Positions 5,550 to 52,109 of a stretch of 64,000 nucleotides of DNA are shown piece after piece. Source of the stretch: Sphingobacterium thalpophilum (lineage in GTDB: Bacteria; Bacteroidota; Bacteroidia; Sphingobacteriales; Sphingobacteriaceae). The stretch is from assembly GCA_945868825.1 (NCBI GenBank), contig CAMBMM010000001.1, positions 124,001-188,000 on the forward strand, in the 5' to 3' direction. The position numbers and the translations under genes were made by a program. The notes under the pieces are model-generated. The model did not search any database. It saw nothing but the letters and a program-made list of their open reading frames with translations, and was not told the DNA's origin. Within the stretch, counting starts at the first letter, position 1; each line of letters begins with the position of its first letter.

Positions 5550-6092
5550 CTATTGTATGGAAATACGTTTAATAACGGTTTCGTTGCCAGCTATAAATCG
5601 AATAAAATATAAACCACTATTTAGGCTATCACCAATATTAAAAGTCGCATTTTGCTCTCCTGCAGGTACTTTTCTTGATAGTAGCGTGCTCACTTCATTG
5701 CCCAAAAAGTCCATAATTTTAATGGTCATGGTTACTTCTTTGCTTAAAGTATAGTTTACGTTTAACTGATCGGATATCGGATTGGGATATACTTTTACAT
5801 TGCTAAGTACCTTGCCATCGGGTAAGTTTATTTTGTTAGTACTGGTGGTGCTTGGTTTTATTACCGATGGTTTAAAAGGCACCATGCTTACTTTTAACTT
5901 AGTTTTTAAGAAAGCTGGTTTTTCTTTGCGGGTATCGGTAATTTTTCCGCCAATTCTAGAGGCACTTGCACGAATGCTATCTGTTCTTAAAATAGGCTTT
6001 AACGTCTCTGCATAGGCATTCACATGCAATCCCCCTAAAATAAGAGTAGCAAATAAAAGGGTATGTACGGTTTTTTTGTAGAGTTTCCCCAT
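5550..6092 (-). CDS. T9SS type A sorting domain-containing protein
   Basis: Signal peptide; C-terminal VYPNPISDQLNVNYTL...SGLYFIRFIAGNETVIKRISIQ. Confidence 0.88.
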   Translation of the reverse strand: MGKLYKKTVHTLLFATLILGGLHVNAYAETLKPILRTDSIRASASRIGGKITDTRKEKPAFLKTKLKVSMVPFKPSVIKPSTTSTNKINLPDGKVLSNVKVYPNPISDQLNVNYTLSKEVTMTIKIMDFLGNEVSTLLSRKVPAGEQNATFNIGDSLNSGLYFIRFIAGNETVIKRISIQ

Positions 6093-6225
6093 ATAGTTAA
6101 GCCTTGTGTAAAAATATATATAATTTCTAGGCTCTGTATATATGAAACTCTAGTTTTTATTTTTTTAACATAATTTAACGAAAATGATACAAAATGAGGT
6201 CATTTTAACTATCCAATCTTTTAGT

Positions 6226-6255
6226 TTGTAAATCGGAAATGTTGGTTTACTTTTG
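6226..6255 (+). promoter_or_regulatory. Bacteroidota-type promoter (TTG-N19-TACTTTTG) for KUP transporter
   Basis: TTG at 6226-6228, TACTTTTG at 6248-6255, 19-nt spacer; matches TTTG / TAnnTTTG consensus. Confidence 0.6.
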
Positions 6256-6273
6256 TTCGTTAATTTAAAACAA

Positions 6274-8211
6274 GTGAGCAATCATAAAAATCAACAAAAG
6301 CTTTCTGCAGCTGGCTTATTAATTAGTTTAGGTATTATTTATGGCGATATTGGTACATCGCCACTTTATGTATTTAAAGCTATTGTAGGTGATAGTATCA
6401 TCACTACTGATTTAATCCTGGGCGGTTTATCGTGTATTTTTTGGACACTAACCTTACAAACTACTATTAAGTATGTACTTATTACGCTTCGGGCAGATAA
6501 TAAGGGAGAGGGTGGAATTTTCTCTTTATATTCTTTAGTAAAAAGAAAAGCTAAATGGCTAACTATTCCGGCTATGATTGGTGGCTGTGCCCTTTTAGCC
6601 GACGGCATTATTACCCCACCATTTACGGTTTCTTCAGCCATTGAAGGGTTAATTATCGTAAATCCAGGTTTGCCCACTGTGCCTATAGTGATCGCCATAC
6701 TTACGGTTTTGTTTATTATTCAGCAATTCGGAACCTCATTAGTGGGTAAAGCATTCGGGCCTATTATGTTTATTTGGTTTGGTATGATGGCGGTATTGGG
6801 TATCGTATTTGTGTTACAATATCCTGCAATTCTACACTCCATTAATCCATATTATGCCTACAAAATATTGGCTTCATCGCCCAGCTCTTTTCTAATTTTA
6901 GGTGCTGTTTTTCTGTGTACAACAGGTGCAGAAGCTTTGTATTCAGATTTGGGACATTGCGGCAGATCTAATATTCAGATCAGTTGGATTTATGTAAAAA
7001 TTTGTTTGCTTTTAAACTATATGGGCCAGGGGGTATGGCTTTTACAGCACCAAGGTACTACCTTAAATGGCGCTAATCCGTTCTTCCAAATTATGCCTTC
7101 TTGGTTTTTAATCCCAGGCATTGCTATCGCCACGCTTGCAGCAATTATTGCTAGTCAGGCATTAATTTCAGGCTCTTTTACCCTTATTGCAGAGGCTGTT
7201 CGCTTAAACTTATGGCCAAAAGTTAGAATCAACTATCCTAGCAATCAGAAAGGCCAATTATATGTACCTTCTATTAATTGGTTATTATGGGTGGGCTGTT
7301 TAGTTGTGGTATTTATTTTTCGGGAGTCTACCAAAATGGAAGCAGCGTATGGCCTCTCTATCACTTTAGCCATGCTCATGACTACTATTCTCTTGAGTGT
7401 TTACTTGCTGCGCAAAAAAGTACCGTCCTATTTGGTAATCATTTTTTTAACCGTATATCTAATTATAGAATTAACATTTTTAACAGGCAACTTGGCAAAA
7501 ATAATGCATGGTGGTTGGTTTACCATCGTGTTGGGGTCTATATTGTTTTCGGTGATGTGGGCCTGGTCTTCTGCCCGAAAAATTAAAAACAGATTTGTAA
7601 AATTTGTTGATATTGAAGAGTATTATCCAATTATTAAGGATTTAAGCGAAGATGAAACAGTACCCAAATTGGCTTCGCAATTGGTGTATTTAACGAGTGC
7701 AAATTTCCGCTCAGAAATAGAGTTAAAAATTATGTACTCCATTTTACAAAAGCAACCAAAACGTGCCGATGTGTATTGGTTGGTACACGTAGATGTAATG
7801 GATGAACCTTATATCAACGATTATAAGGTTGATTTCTTAATTCCGGGTAAATTAATTCGTATCGATTTTAAGCTTGGCTTTAGGGTAGAGCAGCGTATTA
7901 ATGTACTGTTCCGTAAAGTGGTAGAAGATTTAGTTAAGAATAAAGAAGTAGATATTACCAGTAAACATCCTTCTTTAAATAAAAATCATATTGTGGGCGA
8001 TTTTCGCTTTGTGTTGTTAGAGAAAGTGCTTTCTCGTTCAAATAAATTGCCTTTTTTGGAGCGGTTTATTATGAACTATTATTTCATTCTGCATAAACTA
8101 AGTTTATCTGAAGAAAAAGGCTTTGGTCTCGATTCTAGCTTTGTGAAAATAGAACGTGTACCGCTCATGGTCTCGGTACCAGAAAACATTATCTTAAATA
8201 GGATTAAATAA
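6274..8211 (+). CDS. kup: KUP/HAK/KT family potassium transporter
   Basis: LGIIYGDIGTSPLYVFK, ADNKGEGGIFSLYSL, LLADGIITPPFTVSSAIEGL; start moved to GTG 6274 because the -7 box covers the TTG at 6253. Confidence 0.95.
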   Translation: MSNHKNQQKLSAAGLLISLGIIYGDIGTSPLYVFKAIVGDSIITTDLILGGLSCIFWTLTLQTTIKYVLITLRADNKGEGGIFSLYSLVKRKAKWLTIPAMIGGCALLADGIITPPFTVSSAIEGLIIVNPGLPTVPIVIAILTVLFIIQQFGTSLVGKAFGPIMFIWFGMMAVLGIVFVLQYPAILHSINPYYAYKILASSPSSFLILGAVFLCTTGAEALYSDLGHCGRSNIQISWIYVKICLLLNYMGQGVWLLQHQGTTLNGANPFFQIMPSWFLIPGIAIATLAAIIASQALISGSFTLIAEAVRLNLWPKVRINYPSNQKGQLYVPSINWLLWVGCLVVVFIFRESTKMEAAYGLSITLAMLMTTILLSVYLLRKKVPSYLVIIFLTVYLIIELTFLTGNLAKIMHGGWFTIVLGSILFSVMWAWSSARKIKNRFVKFVDIEEYYPIIKDLSEDETVPKLASQLVYLTSANFRSEIELKIMYSILQKQPKRADVYWLVHVDVMDEPYINDYKVDFLIPGKLIRIDFKLGFRVEQRINVLFRKVVEDLVKNKEVDITSKHPSLNKNHIVGDFRFVLLEKVLSRSNKLPFLERFIMNYYFILHKLSLSEEKGFGLDSSFVKIERVPLMVSVPENIILNRIK

Positions 8212-48662: not shown

Positions 48663-50111
48663 TTACTTCATAAACAGGTCACTAAACTGAAATCCTTCTA
48701 CGAATCTATCCTTGCTTAGTTTTTTATATTCAACCAATGCCCAAAGGACAAACTCTTTTAAAAAGTAGGTATCTTCTTTGCTTGTTTCTGGCTGGTATTT
48801 TTTTATCAGCTCGTTTAATGGTTTTACCGAATCCAGTTCCTTTTTATACTCTTCATCCGTAGCATCATCTAACAATTCCAAGCCGGGTTCATTTTCAAAC
48901 CAGTCTATAATGTCAGCATATGCACTTTTACTTGGGTCCTTTTCTAATTTTCCAATTTTTGGGAAATAGGTAGGGAACAAGGTAGATACCGCATCGGCAA
49001 TTAATTTTTGTGCAACCATTGCGGCTCCTTCTTGTTCACCTTCGTATACCAATTCAACCTTGCCAGTAATAGCTGGAATGATCCCCATAAAATCGGCTAA
49101 ACGAACGGTGGTTCTATTTACACCTAATTTTAAAGCTCTACGTTCGGCAGTACTTATTAAATTTTGGTAAGCCGTAATACTCATACGGGCACTTACGCCA
49201 CTTTTGCTGTCTACAAATTCACTTTCACGAGCTTCAAAGCTTATTTGCTCTAAAATATCTTTTGCTAAAGAGGGTACATAAACCGAATTCGACTGATCTT
49301 CGTTCAGCTTTGCTTCTTGCGCTGTTATTATTTTGGCTATGGCAATGGTTTCCGGATAATGGGTAAGAATCTGCGAACCAATTCTATCTTTTAATGGAGT
49401 TACAATACTTCCTCTATTGGTATAATCTTCGGGGTTGGCTGTAAATACAAATTGCATATCAAGGGGTAAGCGCACTTTATACCCTCGTATTTGCACATCA
49501 CCTTCTTGCAATATATTGAAGAGAGCTACTTGTATCCTTGCTTGCAAATCGGGCAATTCGTTGATCACAAAAATGCAACGATTGGCTCTAGGTATCATTC
49601 CATAGTGAATCACCCGATCATCGGCATACGATAATTTTAAGTTAGCAGCTTTAATAGGATCCACATCACCTATAATATCAGCTACCGTTACATCGGGTGT
49701 AGCCAGTTTTTCAAAAAACCGATCGTTTCTATGTATCCAAGTTATAGGCGTATCCTCTTTTTTTTCGGCTATCAATTCTTTGGCATAACGTGAAATGGGA
49801 TTCAAGGGATCATCGTTTATTTCGGAACCTTCCACTATGGGCATGTATTCATCCAACAATTCCGTCATCTTTCGGGCAAGCCTTGTTTTTGCTTGTCCGC
49901 GTAACCCCAACAGGTTAATATTATGCCGCGATAAAATAGCTCTTTCCAATTCAGGGATCACTGTATTTTCAAAACCATGTACCCCTTCAAAAACAGGTTT
50001 TCCCGATTTTATTTTCTCCCGTAAATTATGTCGCAATTCATCTTTTATGCTTTTAGAAACATAACCTGCTTTTTTCAATTCACCCAGGGTTTTTATATTC
50101 TCCATTTTCAT
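48663..50111 (-). CDS. MoxR / Mg-chelatase-like AAA+ ATPase
   Basis: LLGLRGQAKTRLARKMTEL (Walker A-like), CIFVINELPDLQARIQVALFNILQEGDVQIRGY, FVFTANPEDYTNRGSIVTPLKDRIGSQI. Confidence 0.92.
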   Translation of the reverse strand: MKMENIKTLGELKKAGYVSKSIKDELRHNLREKIKSGKPVFEGVHGFENTVIPELERAILSRHNINLLGLRGQAKTRLARKMTELLDEYMPIVEGSEINDDPLNPISRYAKELIAEKKEDTPITWIHRNDRFFEKLATPDVTVADIIGDVDPIKAANLKLSYADDRVIHYGMIPRANRCIFVINELPDLQARIQVALFNILQEGDVQIRGYKVRLPLDMQFVFTANPEDYTNRGSIVTPLKDRIGSQILTHYPETIAIAKIITAQEAKLNEDQSNSVYVPSLAKDILEQISFEARESEFVDSKSGVSARMSITAYQNLISTAERRALKLGVNRTTVRLADFMGIIPAITGKVELVYEGEQEGAAMVAQKLIADAVSTLFPTYFPKIGKLEKDPSKSAYADIIDWFENEPGLELLDDATDEEYKKELDSVKPLNELIKKYQPETSKEDTYFLKEFVLWALVEYKKLSKDRFVEGFQFSDLFMK

Positions 50112-50116
50112 AGTCG

Positions 50117-51235
50117 TTATTTTAATTTCTTTTTTCGGTTGGTCTCGTAATCTTCAAATATCATTTCGCCCAATCCTTTCAATCCGGTATAAAACGCTTT
50201 GCCCTGATTGGCTGCCGTAAAATTATCTACAAACTCCTGCAAATAGCCATCACGGGCAATCATAAACGTGGTAATGGGTATATGCAGTTTACGGGCCTGT
50301 TGCGCCTGGTTATAACATTGTTCAACAATATAGGGGTCTAGTCCGTTGCTATTCATATAATACCTGCCATCTTTTTCTTTCACGCAACTGGGCTTACCAT
50401 CGGTAATCATAAAAATTTGTTTGTTGGTATTTCTTTTTCGGCGCAACATATCCATGGCCAATTGCAAGCCGGCTACGGTGTTGGTATGGTAAGGCCCCAC
50501 GGTTAAATAGGGGAGATCTTTAATGGCAATAGACCAGGCATCATCCCCGAATACTAAAATATCCAACGTGTCTTTTGGATAACGGGTGGTTATCAATTCG
50601 GCCAAGGCCATGGCCACTTTTTTGGCTGGCGTAATTCTATCTTCACCGTACAAAATCATGCTATGGCTAATGTCTATCATCAGTACCGTACTCATTTGTG
50701 CCTTGTACTGGGCATCCTCCACTACCAGATCATTTTCGGTAAGGGTGAACTCGTCTACGCCATTGTTTATTTGTGCATTGCGCAAACTTTCGGTAAGCGA
50801 AATACTTTCTACGGAGTCGCCAAAGGTATAGGCTCTAAATTCACCAGTTTGCTCGTCGCCGTTACCGGCATATTTGGTCTTGTGATTTCCGGTGCCAGAT
50901 TTTTTTAAATTACCAAAGATTTGGTCGAGGGCTGCTTGGCGTATTTCTCGTTCGGTTTTAGAGGTAATAGACATTCCACCGGTGCCATCGGGATTTACTT
51001 CTTGTTTGATGTAGCCTTTTTGTTTCAGGTCTTCAATAAAATCGTCGATGGTGTAATTTTCATCGGTGAGCTTATATTCCTTATCCAGCGCCCGTAGCCA
51101 ATCAATGGCCTCATCAAAGTCGCCCGAAGTATGTACAATAAGTTCCTTAAATATGTCGAATAGTTTATCGAATGGAGCAATAAAAGGAGCCTCATAAGTT
51201 TTAAATGCAAATCCTTTTTTATGCGTGTATTCCAT
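50117..51235 (-). CDS. VWA domain-containing protein paired with MoxR-type ATPase
   Basis: MIDISHSMILYG MIDAS motif, DTLDILVFGDDAW, MITDGKPSC; start placed at MEYTHKKGF (51235), alternative MPHK start at 51280. Confidence 0.9.
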   Translation of the reverse strand: MEYTHKKGFAFKTYEAPFIAPFDKLFDIFKELIVHTSGDFDEAIDWLRALDKEYKLTDENYTIDDFIEDLKQKGYIKQEVNPDGTGGMSITSKTEREIRQAALDQIFGNLKKSGTGNHKTKYAGNGDEQTGEFRAYTFGDSVESISLTESLRNAQINNGVDEFTLTENDLVVEDAQYKAQMSTVLMIDISHSMILYGEDRITPAKKVAMALAELITTRYPKDTLDILVFGDDAWSIAIKDLPYLTVGPYHTNTVAGLQLAMDMLRRKRNTNKQIFMITDGKPSCVKEKDGRYYMNSNGLDPYIVEQCYNQAQQARKLHIPITTFMIARDGYLQEFVDNFTAANQGKAFYTGLKGLGEMIFEDYETNRKKKLK

Positions 51236-51318
51236 CACCGTAAAATTACGATTTTTAGCCAATACAACTTTGTGTGGCATTGTTTTTTTTATGTAAAATT
51301 GAGCTTTTTTGGTGGGTG

Positions 51319-51600
51319 CTTTTGCATTGCTTCGGGCGACTGCGGCACGCTCTCGTGCGGCTGCGCCTTGTTGAGGTGCTACTGTGTCTTGGTAAAGTCT
51401 TACTGCGCCATGGTGAGGTGCTACTGCGTCTTGATCATATGCTACTGCGCCTTGGTAAAGTCTTACTGCGCCATGGTGAGGTGCTACTGCGGCATGCTAT
51501 CGGGCGGGTGTGACACGCTATCGGGCTACTGTTTCACTACTTCGGATGGATGTTGCATTGCTTCGGATGGATGTTGCATTCTTTGGGGTGGCTGTTACCT
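51319..51600. repeat. Degenerate 21-bp tandem repeat (minisatellite), 13-14 units
   Basis: TGC/TGT anchors at 51341, 51362, 51383, 51404, 51425, 51446, 51467, 51488, 51509, 51530, 51551, 51572, 51593 (exact 21-nt spacing) plus one at 51323 (18 nt); 41-bp identical direct repeat at 51388-51428 and 51451-51491. Confidence 0.93.
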
Positions 51601-51634
51601 ACTTAGCTTTTTTCATACGCTACTAATGTTGCGT

Positions 51635-51928
51635 TTATTTACTAAAAACCATAAACAAAATAGTAGTTATACTAATAAGCATAGCATAGATATAAAGTGA
51701 TCTGACACTAAACTTTTCTTTTACCACTAATATCAGAGAAAGTATTGGCAGGATAAATAACATAGCTAGAGCGGGAAGCCACAGTATCTCAAAGATGGCA
51801 CCACCTAAAGCAGAATTATATACATTTATGAACTGTCCCAACCAGCAATATCCAGCCACAATGATGCTCAGAATAAAGACTATTTTACTTGTTCTTGAAT
51901 TAGAAAACGAAGTTAAATTCTCTTTCAT
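51635..51928 (-). CDS. Small three-TM hypothetical membrane protein
   Basis: Three hydrophobic segments, 97 aa. Confidence 0.55.
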   Translation of the reverse strand: MKENLTSFSNSRTSKIVFILSIIVAGYCWLGQFINVYNSALGGAIFEILWLPALAMLFILPILSLILVVKEKFSVRSLYIYAMLISITTILFMVFSK

Positions 51929-51962
51929 AAATTTTAAATCAATGGGTGAATATAGCTTTGCC

Positions 51963-52106
51963 TATAACGTTTGGCCGCTTGGCGAAGGTGCGGGAAATTG
52001 AAGCACTAAAGCTGAATTTATTACTAATATTCAATTGAAAAACTGCCGTTGAATTTTGCACCTCAGCCCCCATTTTGGCAAACCCATGTTGTGCTCTCGT
52101 TGTTAT
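51963..52106. repeat. attC-like imperfect palindromic repeat, copy 1
   Basis: ATAAC...GTTAT outer arms, AGGTGC (51986-51991)/GCACCT (52058-52063); shares CGGGAAATYRAAGCAC and TTTTGSCAAACCCATGTT blocks with copy 2. Confidence 0.65.
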
Positions 52107-52109
52107 GTA

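Follow-up and report, generated by a model that had tools for sequence, protein, structure and literature searches.

What is a tandem repeat whose units diverge strongly from one another while their spacing stays exact, and what holds such a repeat in register? The question is raised by an array of 21-bp units in the window, by which we mean the whole stretch of 64,000 nucleotides that was analyzed.

The window array and its neighbors

The array lies next to a gene for a VWA-domain protein and is built from two unit types, termed A and B, within the following surroundings (window coordinates).

48663 to 50111, minus strand: gene for a MoxR-type AAA ATPase (Pfam AAA_5, E=1.5e-7)
50117 to 51280, minus strand: gene for the VWA-domain protein (Pfam VWA_2, E=1e-8), its start 39 bp from the array
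51319 to 51612, plus strand: whole array, 14 units of 21 bp (TRF, autocorrelation scan, register walk)
51319 to 51360, plus strand: pair of B-like units on the edge facing VWA (half-unit comparison with the A and B consensus)
51361 to 51486, plus strand: block of six A-type units, with the A-array consensus CTGCGCCGTGGTAAAGTGCGA (half-unit comparison with consensus)
51388 to 51491, plus strand: exact duplication of 41 bp with a 63-bp offset (copies at 51388 and 51451)
51487 to 51528, plus strand: two transitional A/B units (half-unit comparison with consensus)
51529 to 51612, plus strand: B-type units (CTGTTGCACGGCTTCGGATGG), the final one decayed (half-unit comparison with consensus)
51635 to 51928, minus strand: 97-aa open reading frame (ORF) of no known family, its 3′ end abutting the array
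51960 to 52109, minus strand: weak attC-like candidate, an imperfect inverted repeat that separates the 97-aa ORF from SCO1 (a lead only; sequence reading, fold)

In the register walk, every spacing between the 14 consecutive units is 21 bp, and TRF reports a period of 21 at 51361–51491 and 51530–51596. An earlier note on this DNA had described 13 successive TGC/TGT anchors recurring at 21-nt intervals between 51341 and 51593, a 41-bp exact duplicate at a 63-bp offset, and a degenerate, phase-locked array outside any known family, and all three descriptions hold. The note also counted one unit that lies 18 nt away. No slip underlies this step. When aligned to the B-type consensus, the unit at 51319 (CTTTTGCATTGCTTCGGGCGA) keeps register with the others; the 18-nt distance arose because a different TGC was used as its anchor. 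When lags of 12 to 59 were scanned across the window, a comparable array was found at lag 21 only, apart from its multiple at 42, and no second period-21 array is present in the window. The GC content of the array is 53%, as against 39% for the window as a whole.

The same note had placed the array upstream of a MoxR/VWA operon and had raised a leader structure as one option; a role as leader or regulator of this operon is not supported. Arrays were found within 2.5 kb upstream of VWA homologs elsewhere at 0 of 80 loci (some of which hold only part of that stretch), and the nearest relative (genome G001) carries another unit type at this place. Likewise, a different ORF in G001 occupies the place of the 97-aa ORF.

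Orthologous arrays change by whole units and by type in exact register

The earlier note would have been contradicted by relatives that lack such repeats, but arrays were found in relatives both at the orthologous position and elsewhere. The source genome (G000; 1.66 Mb in 4 contigs, 99% complete) contains a second related array, own2 (G000:C1:721175–721492). Searches of genus relatives returned ten array matches in G001 (several per array) and two in G005, and profile models add arrays in G002 and G003. With an A-type profile, arrays were recovered from 4 of the 251 genomes of the family, all four within the genus, and 248 kb from other genera of the family contained no period-21 array. A class-wide profile search of 395 genomes yielded one convincing distant relative, designated type X, in a genome of another family (G303) that bears two such arrays on separate contigs (L217:about 6070–6319, and L274). 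The second of these adjoins a REP-like element. Four further class-wide matches (L208, L209, L211 and L212) were set aside as single matches or as having the look of coding repeats. A 21-bp array with a GGGGTT anchor and one 22-bp unit is present in a metagenome-assembled genome (MAG) of the same phylum (L062:1173–1523). A plasmid origin was rejected, as the array has no plasmid match; in viral contigs, an IUPAC A-type pattern matched four unrelated sites that bear no arrays. A literature search on repeats and Bacteroidetes returned nothing on 21-bp arrays.

The recurring unit types are A, B and C, the last of these (CTGYGSC...) being A-like with a strong 42-bp alternation. These three types share homology, and their common period is therefore partly a matter of descent. 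Two further types, D and E, which were met in stretches retrieved for other purposes, have no clear relation to A–C and also keep a strict 21-bp period. The D array (G005:C15, L206:2921–3288) sits immediately upstream of a gene bearing a TATCTTTG box, and the E array (G000:C2, L201:7030–7297) has 11 units. Arrays comprise 6 to 15 units, mostly 9 to 15, and are intergenic, tens to hundreds of bases from the start or stop codons of their neighbors. They can lie upstream of genes, between convergent genes or past stop codons, and this variable placement leaves no uniform regulatory site.

Orthologous loci reveal how the arrays turn over. At the VWA locus, the flank shared with G001 is 93% identical up to window position 51324, and the G001 array, which consists entirely of B units, has a REP-like insertion before it. 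The window array is instead a B-A-B hybrid, wherein B-like ends enclose the six A-type and two transitional units, and over positions 51517–51578 it matches the initial B units of its ortholog (G001:C14) with 81% identity. Thus, blocks of A and B units have been exchanged or differently expanded without loss of register. In G001, own2 is matched by an A-type array. At one locus of C arrays, G000 and G001 share a common array end and differ by ~168 bp, which is eight units' worth, and the 11 units of the E array in G000 correspond to about one unit in G001. Arrays thus lengthen or shorten by entire units, in steps of 21 or 42 bp, and can collapse. They can also be present or absent among close species: some sit in insertions that are missing from close relatives, accompanied by REP-like elements and in some cases by a small gene. 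One array-bearing insertion is at G001:C17, and the corresponding stretch of G000 and G002 is ~41 bp. The array in G003 has decayed and contains register breaks. Flanking a B array compared between L151 and L156, identity is 96% on one side and 71% on the other, a drop that places this array at or near a recombination boundary.

Two side observations concern the surroundings of the arrays. One array-bearing insertion (L148:5960–6740, compared with L195) is bounded by a ~45-bp duplicate, which takes in the beginning of the next gene. In addition, a REP-like element (GGCCCGGCAGAACGGCGGGCC...TTCTGCC) and a CTTCGACAAGCTCAGGATGAC repeat adjoin most G001 arrays (L148–L155), and are not found beside the window array.

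Such turnover is what would be expected if the arrays were purely neutral or selfish minisatellites that have no function. In this alternative, the units would be spread and renewed by slippage, by unequal recombination and by conversion among arrays, and units out of register would be lost because recombination needs in-register pairing. The whole-unit changes in copy number with collapse to about one unit, the replacement of one unit type by another at the VWA locus, the presence or absence of arrays among close species, and the decayed array of G003 all favor this explanation, which we consider a real possibility even though the register data discussed below weigh against it.

At own2, C16 and C18, the flank of the A array closes with a shared "..ACTAG|TT" ahead of different ORFs (these lie at L153:4514–6081, L004:8500–9210 and L152:4512–5600). 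In L153, a clear attC-like hairpin terminates the 283-aa ORF; other attC-like candidates are weak. The hairpin and the varying ORFs suggest integron-type gene cassettes without a recognizable integron integrase, as none scored above the cut-off in the genus. A role as the integron platform (attI) upstream of such cassettes is an attractive lead at own2, C16 and C18, but it was set aside as a general explanation, given the lack of an integrase above the cut-off and the failure of the B and C arrays to fit.

Several described repeat systems share features with these arrays. Iterons of plasmid and phage origins are protein-bound direct repeats of ~20–22 bp in helical phase. The 21-bp arrays are likewise directly repeated and helically phased, protein binding being a feature of the iteron system; unlike iterons, they occur at several chromosomal loci per genome without an adjoining replication gene, and their units are far more diverged. 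Indeed, no replication initiator adjoins the window array, whose neighbors are VWA, MoxR, SCO1 and the 97-aa ORF. Nor does it resemble a CRISPR, as it consists of contiguous degenerate 21-mers without spacers. Cyanobacterial STRR and other heptamer repeats are dispersed, intergenic and tandem. Heptamer repeats are also treated in PMC4692102. The 21-bp arrays share this dispersed, intergenic, tandem arrangement but lack a 7-bp subperiod. REP/REPIN elements (PMC3116915) are dispersed, intergenic and palindromic, whereas the 21-bp arrays are dispersed intergenic repeats of the direct kind; REP-like palindromes often adjoin them in G001. Mycobacterial interspersed repetitive units (MIRU; for example, PMC3294723) and other bacterial VNTRs have tandem units at many intergenic loci per genome and change in copy number by whole units. 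The 21-bp arrays resemble minisatellites and VNTRs in having tandem direct units within ~10–100 bp whose number changes by whole units between close relatives, and resemble a MIRU-like dispersed family in that related arrays occupy several intergenic loci. They differ in that their units, with a divergence of 0.30–0.41, are not near-identical yet keep exact register, and in that several unit types share the period and replace one another at one locus.

Coding, RNA structure and curvature

A 21-bp period is compatible with a heptad-repeat peptide, and the earlier note had read one on each strand. On the plus strand, the array is indeed covered by an open, Cys-rich heptad ORF (51221–51700), for which Pfam has no match. 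On the minus strand, the frame that runs on from VWA is open for ~70 codons in the part of the array that faces VWA and meets stops beyond. Among 127 private, roughly independent mutations, 18 are synonymous in frame +1 as against 25.1 expected, and there is no clear synonymous excess in any frame; comparisons of orthologous arrays likewise revealed no such excess in open frames. One of these mutations creates a stop in frame +1 compared with 5.2 expected, a marginal deficit that is non-significant after six frames. Across 148 A, B and C units, frame +1 contains one stop, whereas two crude nulls predict 9.2 and 16.4. One of them, the column-shuffle null, also flags as equally significant a frame with 19 stops and is thus too lenient. 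The stop deficit of frame +1 leaves a small opening for coding, and ATG-bearing ORFs that cover several arrays also speak for it. However, the ORF starts of the own2 and C16 arrays are unconserved, the types prefer different frames, and the A, B and C peptides have nothing in common. Thus, although the Cys-rich frame is open as described, we regard it as improbable that the arrays generally encode heptad-repeat peptides such as CALLRCY.

The note's suggestion of a leader structure is not supported at the RNA level. The folding energies of the window array relative to shuffles (z = −1.4 and +2.3, one per strand) are unremarkable, and Rfam has no match. More generally, the arrays could act on adjacent genes as structured leader or 3′ RNAs, given that the start or stop codons of neighbors are tens to hundreds of bases away. 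This explanation is very unlikely: folding energies were near those of shuffles in four tests, and the arrays share neither a position nor a strand with respect to genes.

Because 21 bp corresponds to two helical turns, bends could also add in phase, such that the arrays are retained for intrinsic curvature. Predictions made with wedge parameters indicate strong curvature for a few arrays (A_G005, D and C_148), but most are no more curved than their column-permuted versions or the genome, and we give this idea almost no weight.

The 21-bp register and its possible causes

The feature that most needs explanation is the register itself. In a walk through 17 arrays, 178 of 182 unit-to-unit steps are exactly 21 bp, a count that favors intact register in that the walk penalizes other spacings and most arrays were found by lag-21 or model searches. 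Three of the four other steps fall in the decayed array of G003. This regularity coexists with a mean pairwise divergence between units of 0.30–0.41 within arrays. In a neutral birth-and-death simulation brought to similar divergence, which was kept simple (one array, neighbor copying and an assumed indel spectrum), at least 13% of units were off-length at an indel:substitution ratio of 0.01, as against 2% observed, and 40–60% were off-length at ratios of 1/20 to 1/10. When 400 kb of G001 (mainly two contigs known to bear arrays, such that array density is not readable from them) was searched with indel-tolerant TRF settings, all strong non-coding degenerate arrays had a period of 21 or 42 with 1–4% indels. 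No strong non-coding array of another period was recovered, and the 21-bp result is therefore not explained by lag-21 searching alone.

A register this clean at 30–40% divergence is not easily explained by plain neutral repeat evolution. Unit numbers that vary little, mostly 9–15, also speak against the neutral minisatellite explanation, as do the B arrays of G001 and G002, wherein the 12 compared units are collinear with zero indels at ~70% identity. Column variability is similar within a type across species (A, 0.42–0.86; B, 0.74–0.92), a profile compatible with constraint at particular positions or, equally, with old variants held in common.

We tentatively favor a model in which these are dispersed, non-coding, minisatellite-like arrays whose units turn over without losing register and whose two-helical-turn period is maintained at the DNA level. 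The arrays behave like bacterial minisatellites in which units come and go whole, as 21 or 42 bp, and blocks of units pass between types in register. The register would be kept by a double-stranded-DNA constraint on helical phase, which in its simplest form may reflect sites placed every two helical turns, on the same face, for a putative cooperatively binding protein. The common descent of types A, B and C and the variable placement of arrays relative to genes weigh against the model, as does the small opening left for coding. The earlier note had likewise considered a DNA-level role, and its two-helical-turn reading survives as a putative one. The chief difference between the neutral explanation and this model is how register is kept, and the present data do not fully separate the two. 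A more far-reaching version, that chromosomal arrays of Bacteroidota experience selection for exact two-turn spacing with unit sequence nearly free, seems unlikely in that specific form. Such arrays would constitute a nucleoprotein track whose sites drift, hybridize and are replaced while staying on the same face of the helix.

The arrays belong to a genus of small-genome Bacteroidota, and no gene product or function is demonstrable for them. If the period is selected and the sequence is not, this would point to a DNA-structure rule or a binding protein that is undescribed for Bacteroidota, and the arrays would offer a natural test of what holds bacterial satellite repeats in register. If the arrays are neutral, they would be a good model of rapid repeat turnover at fixed places between species that are ~90% identical.
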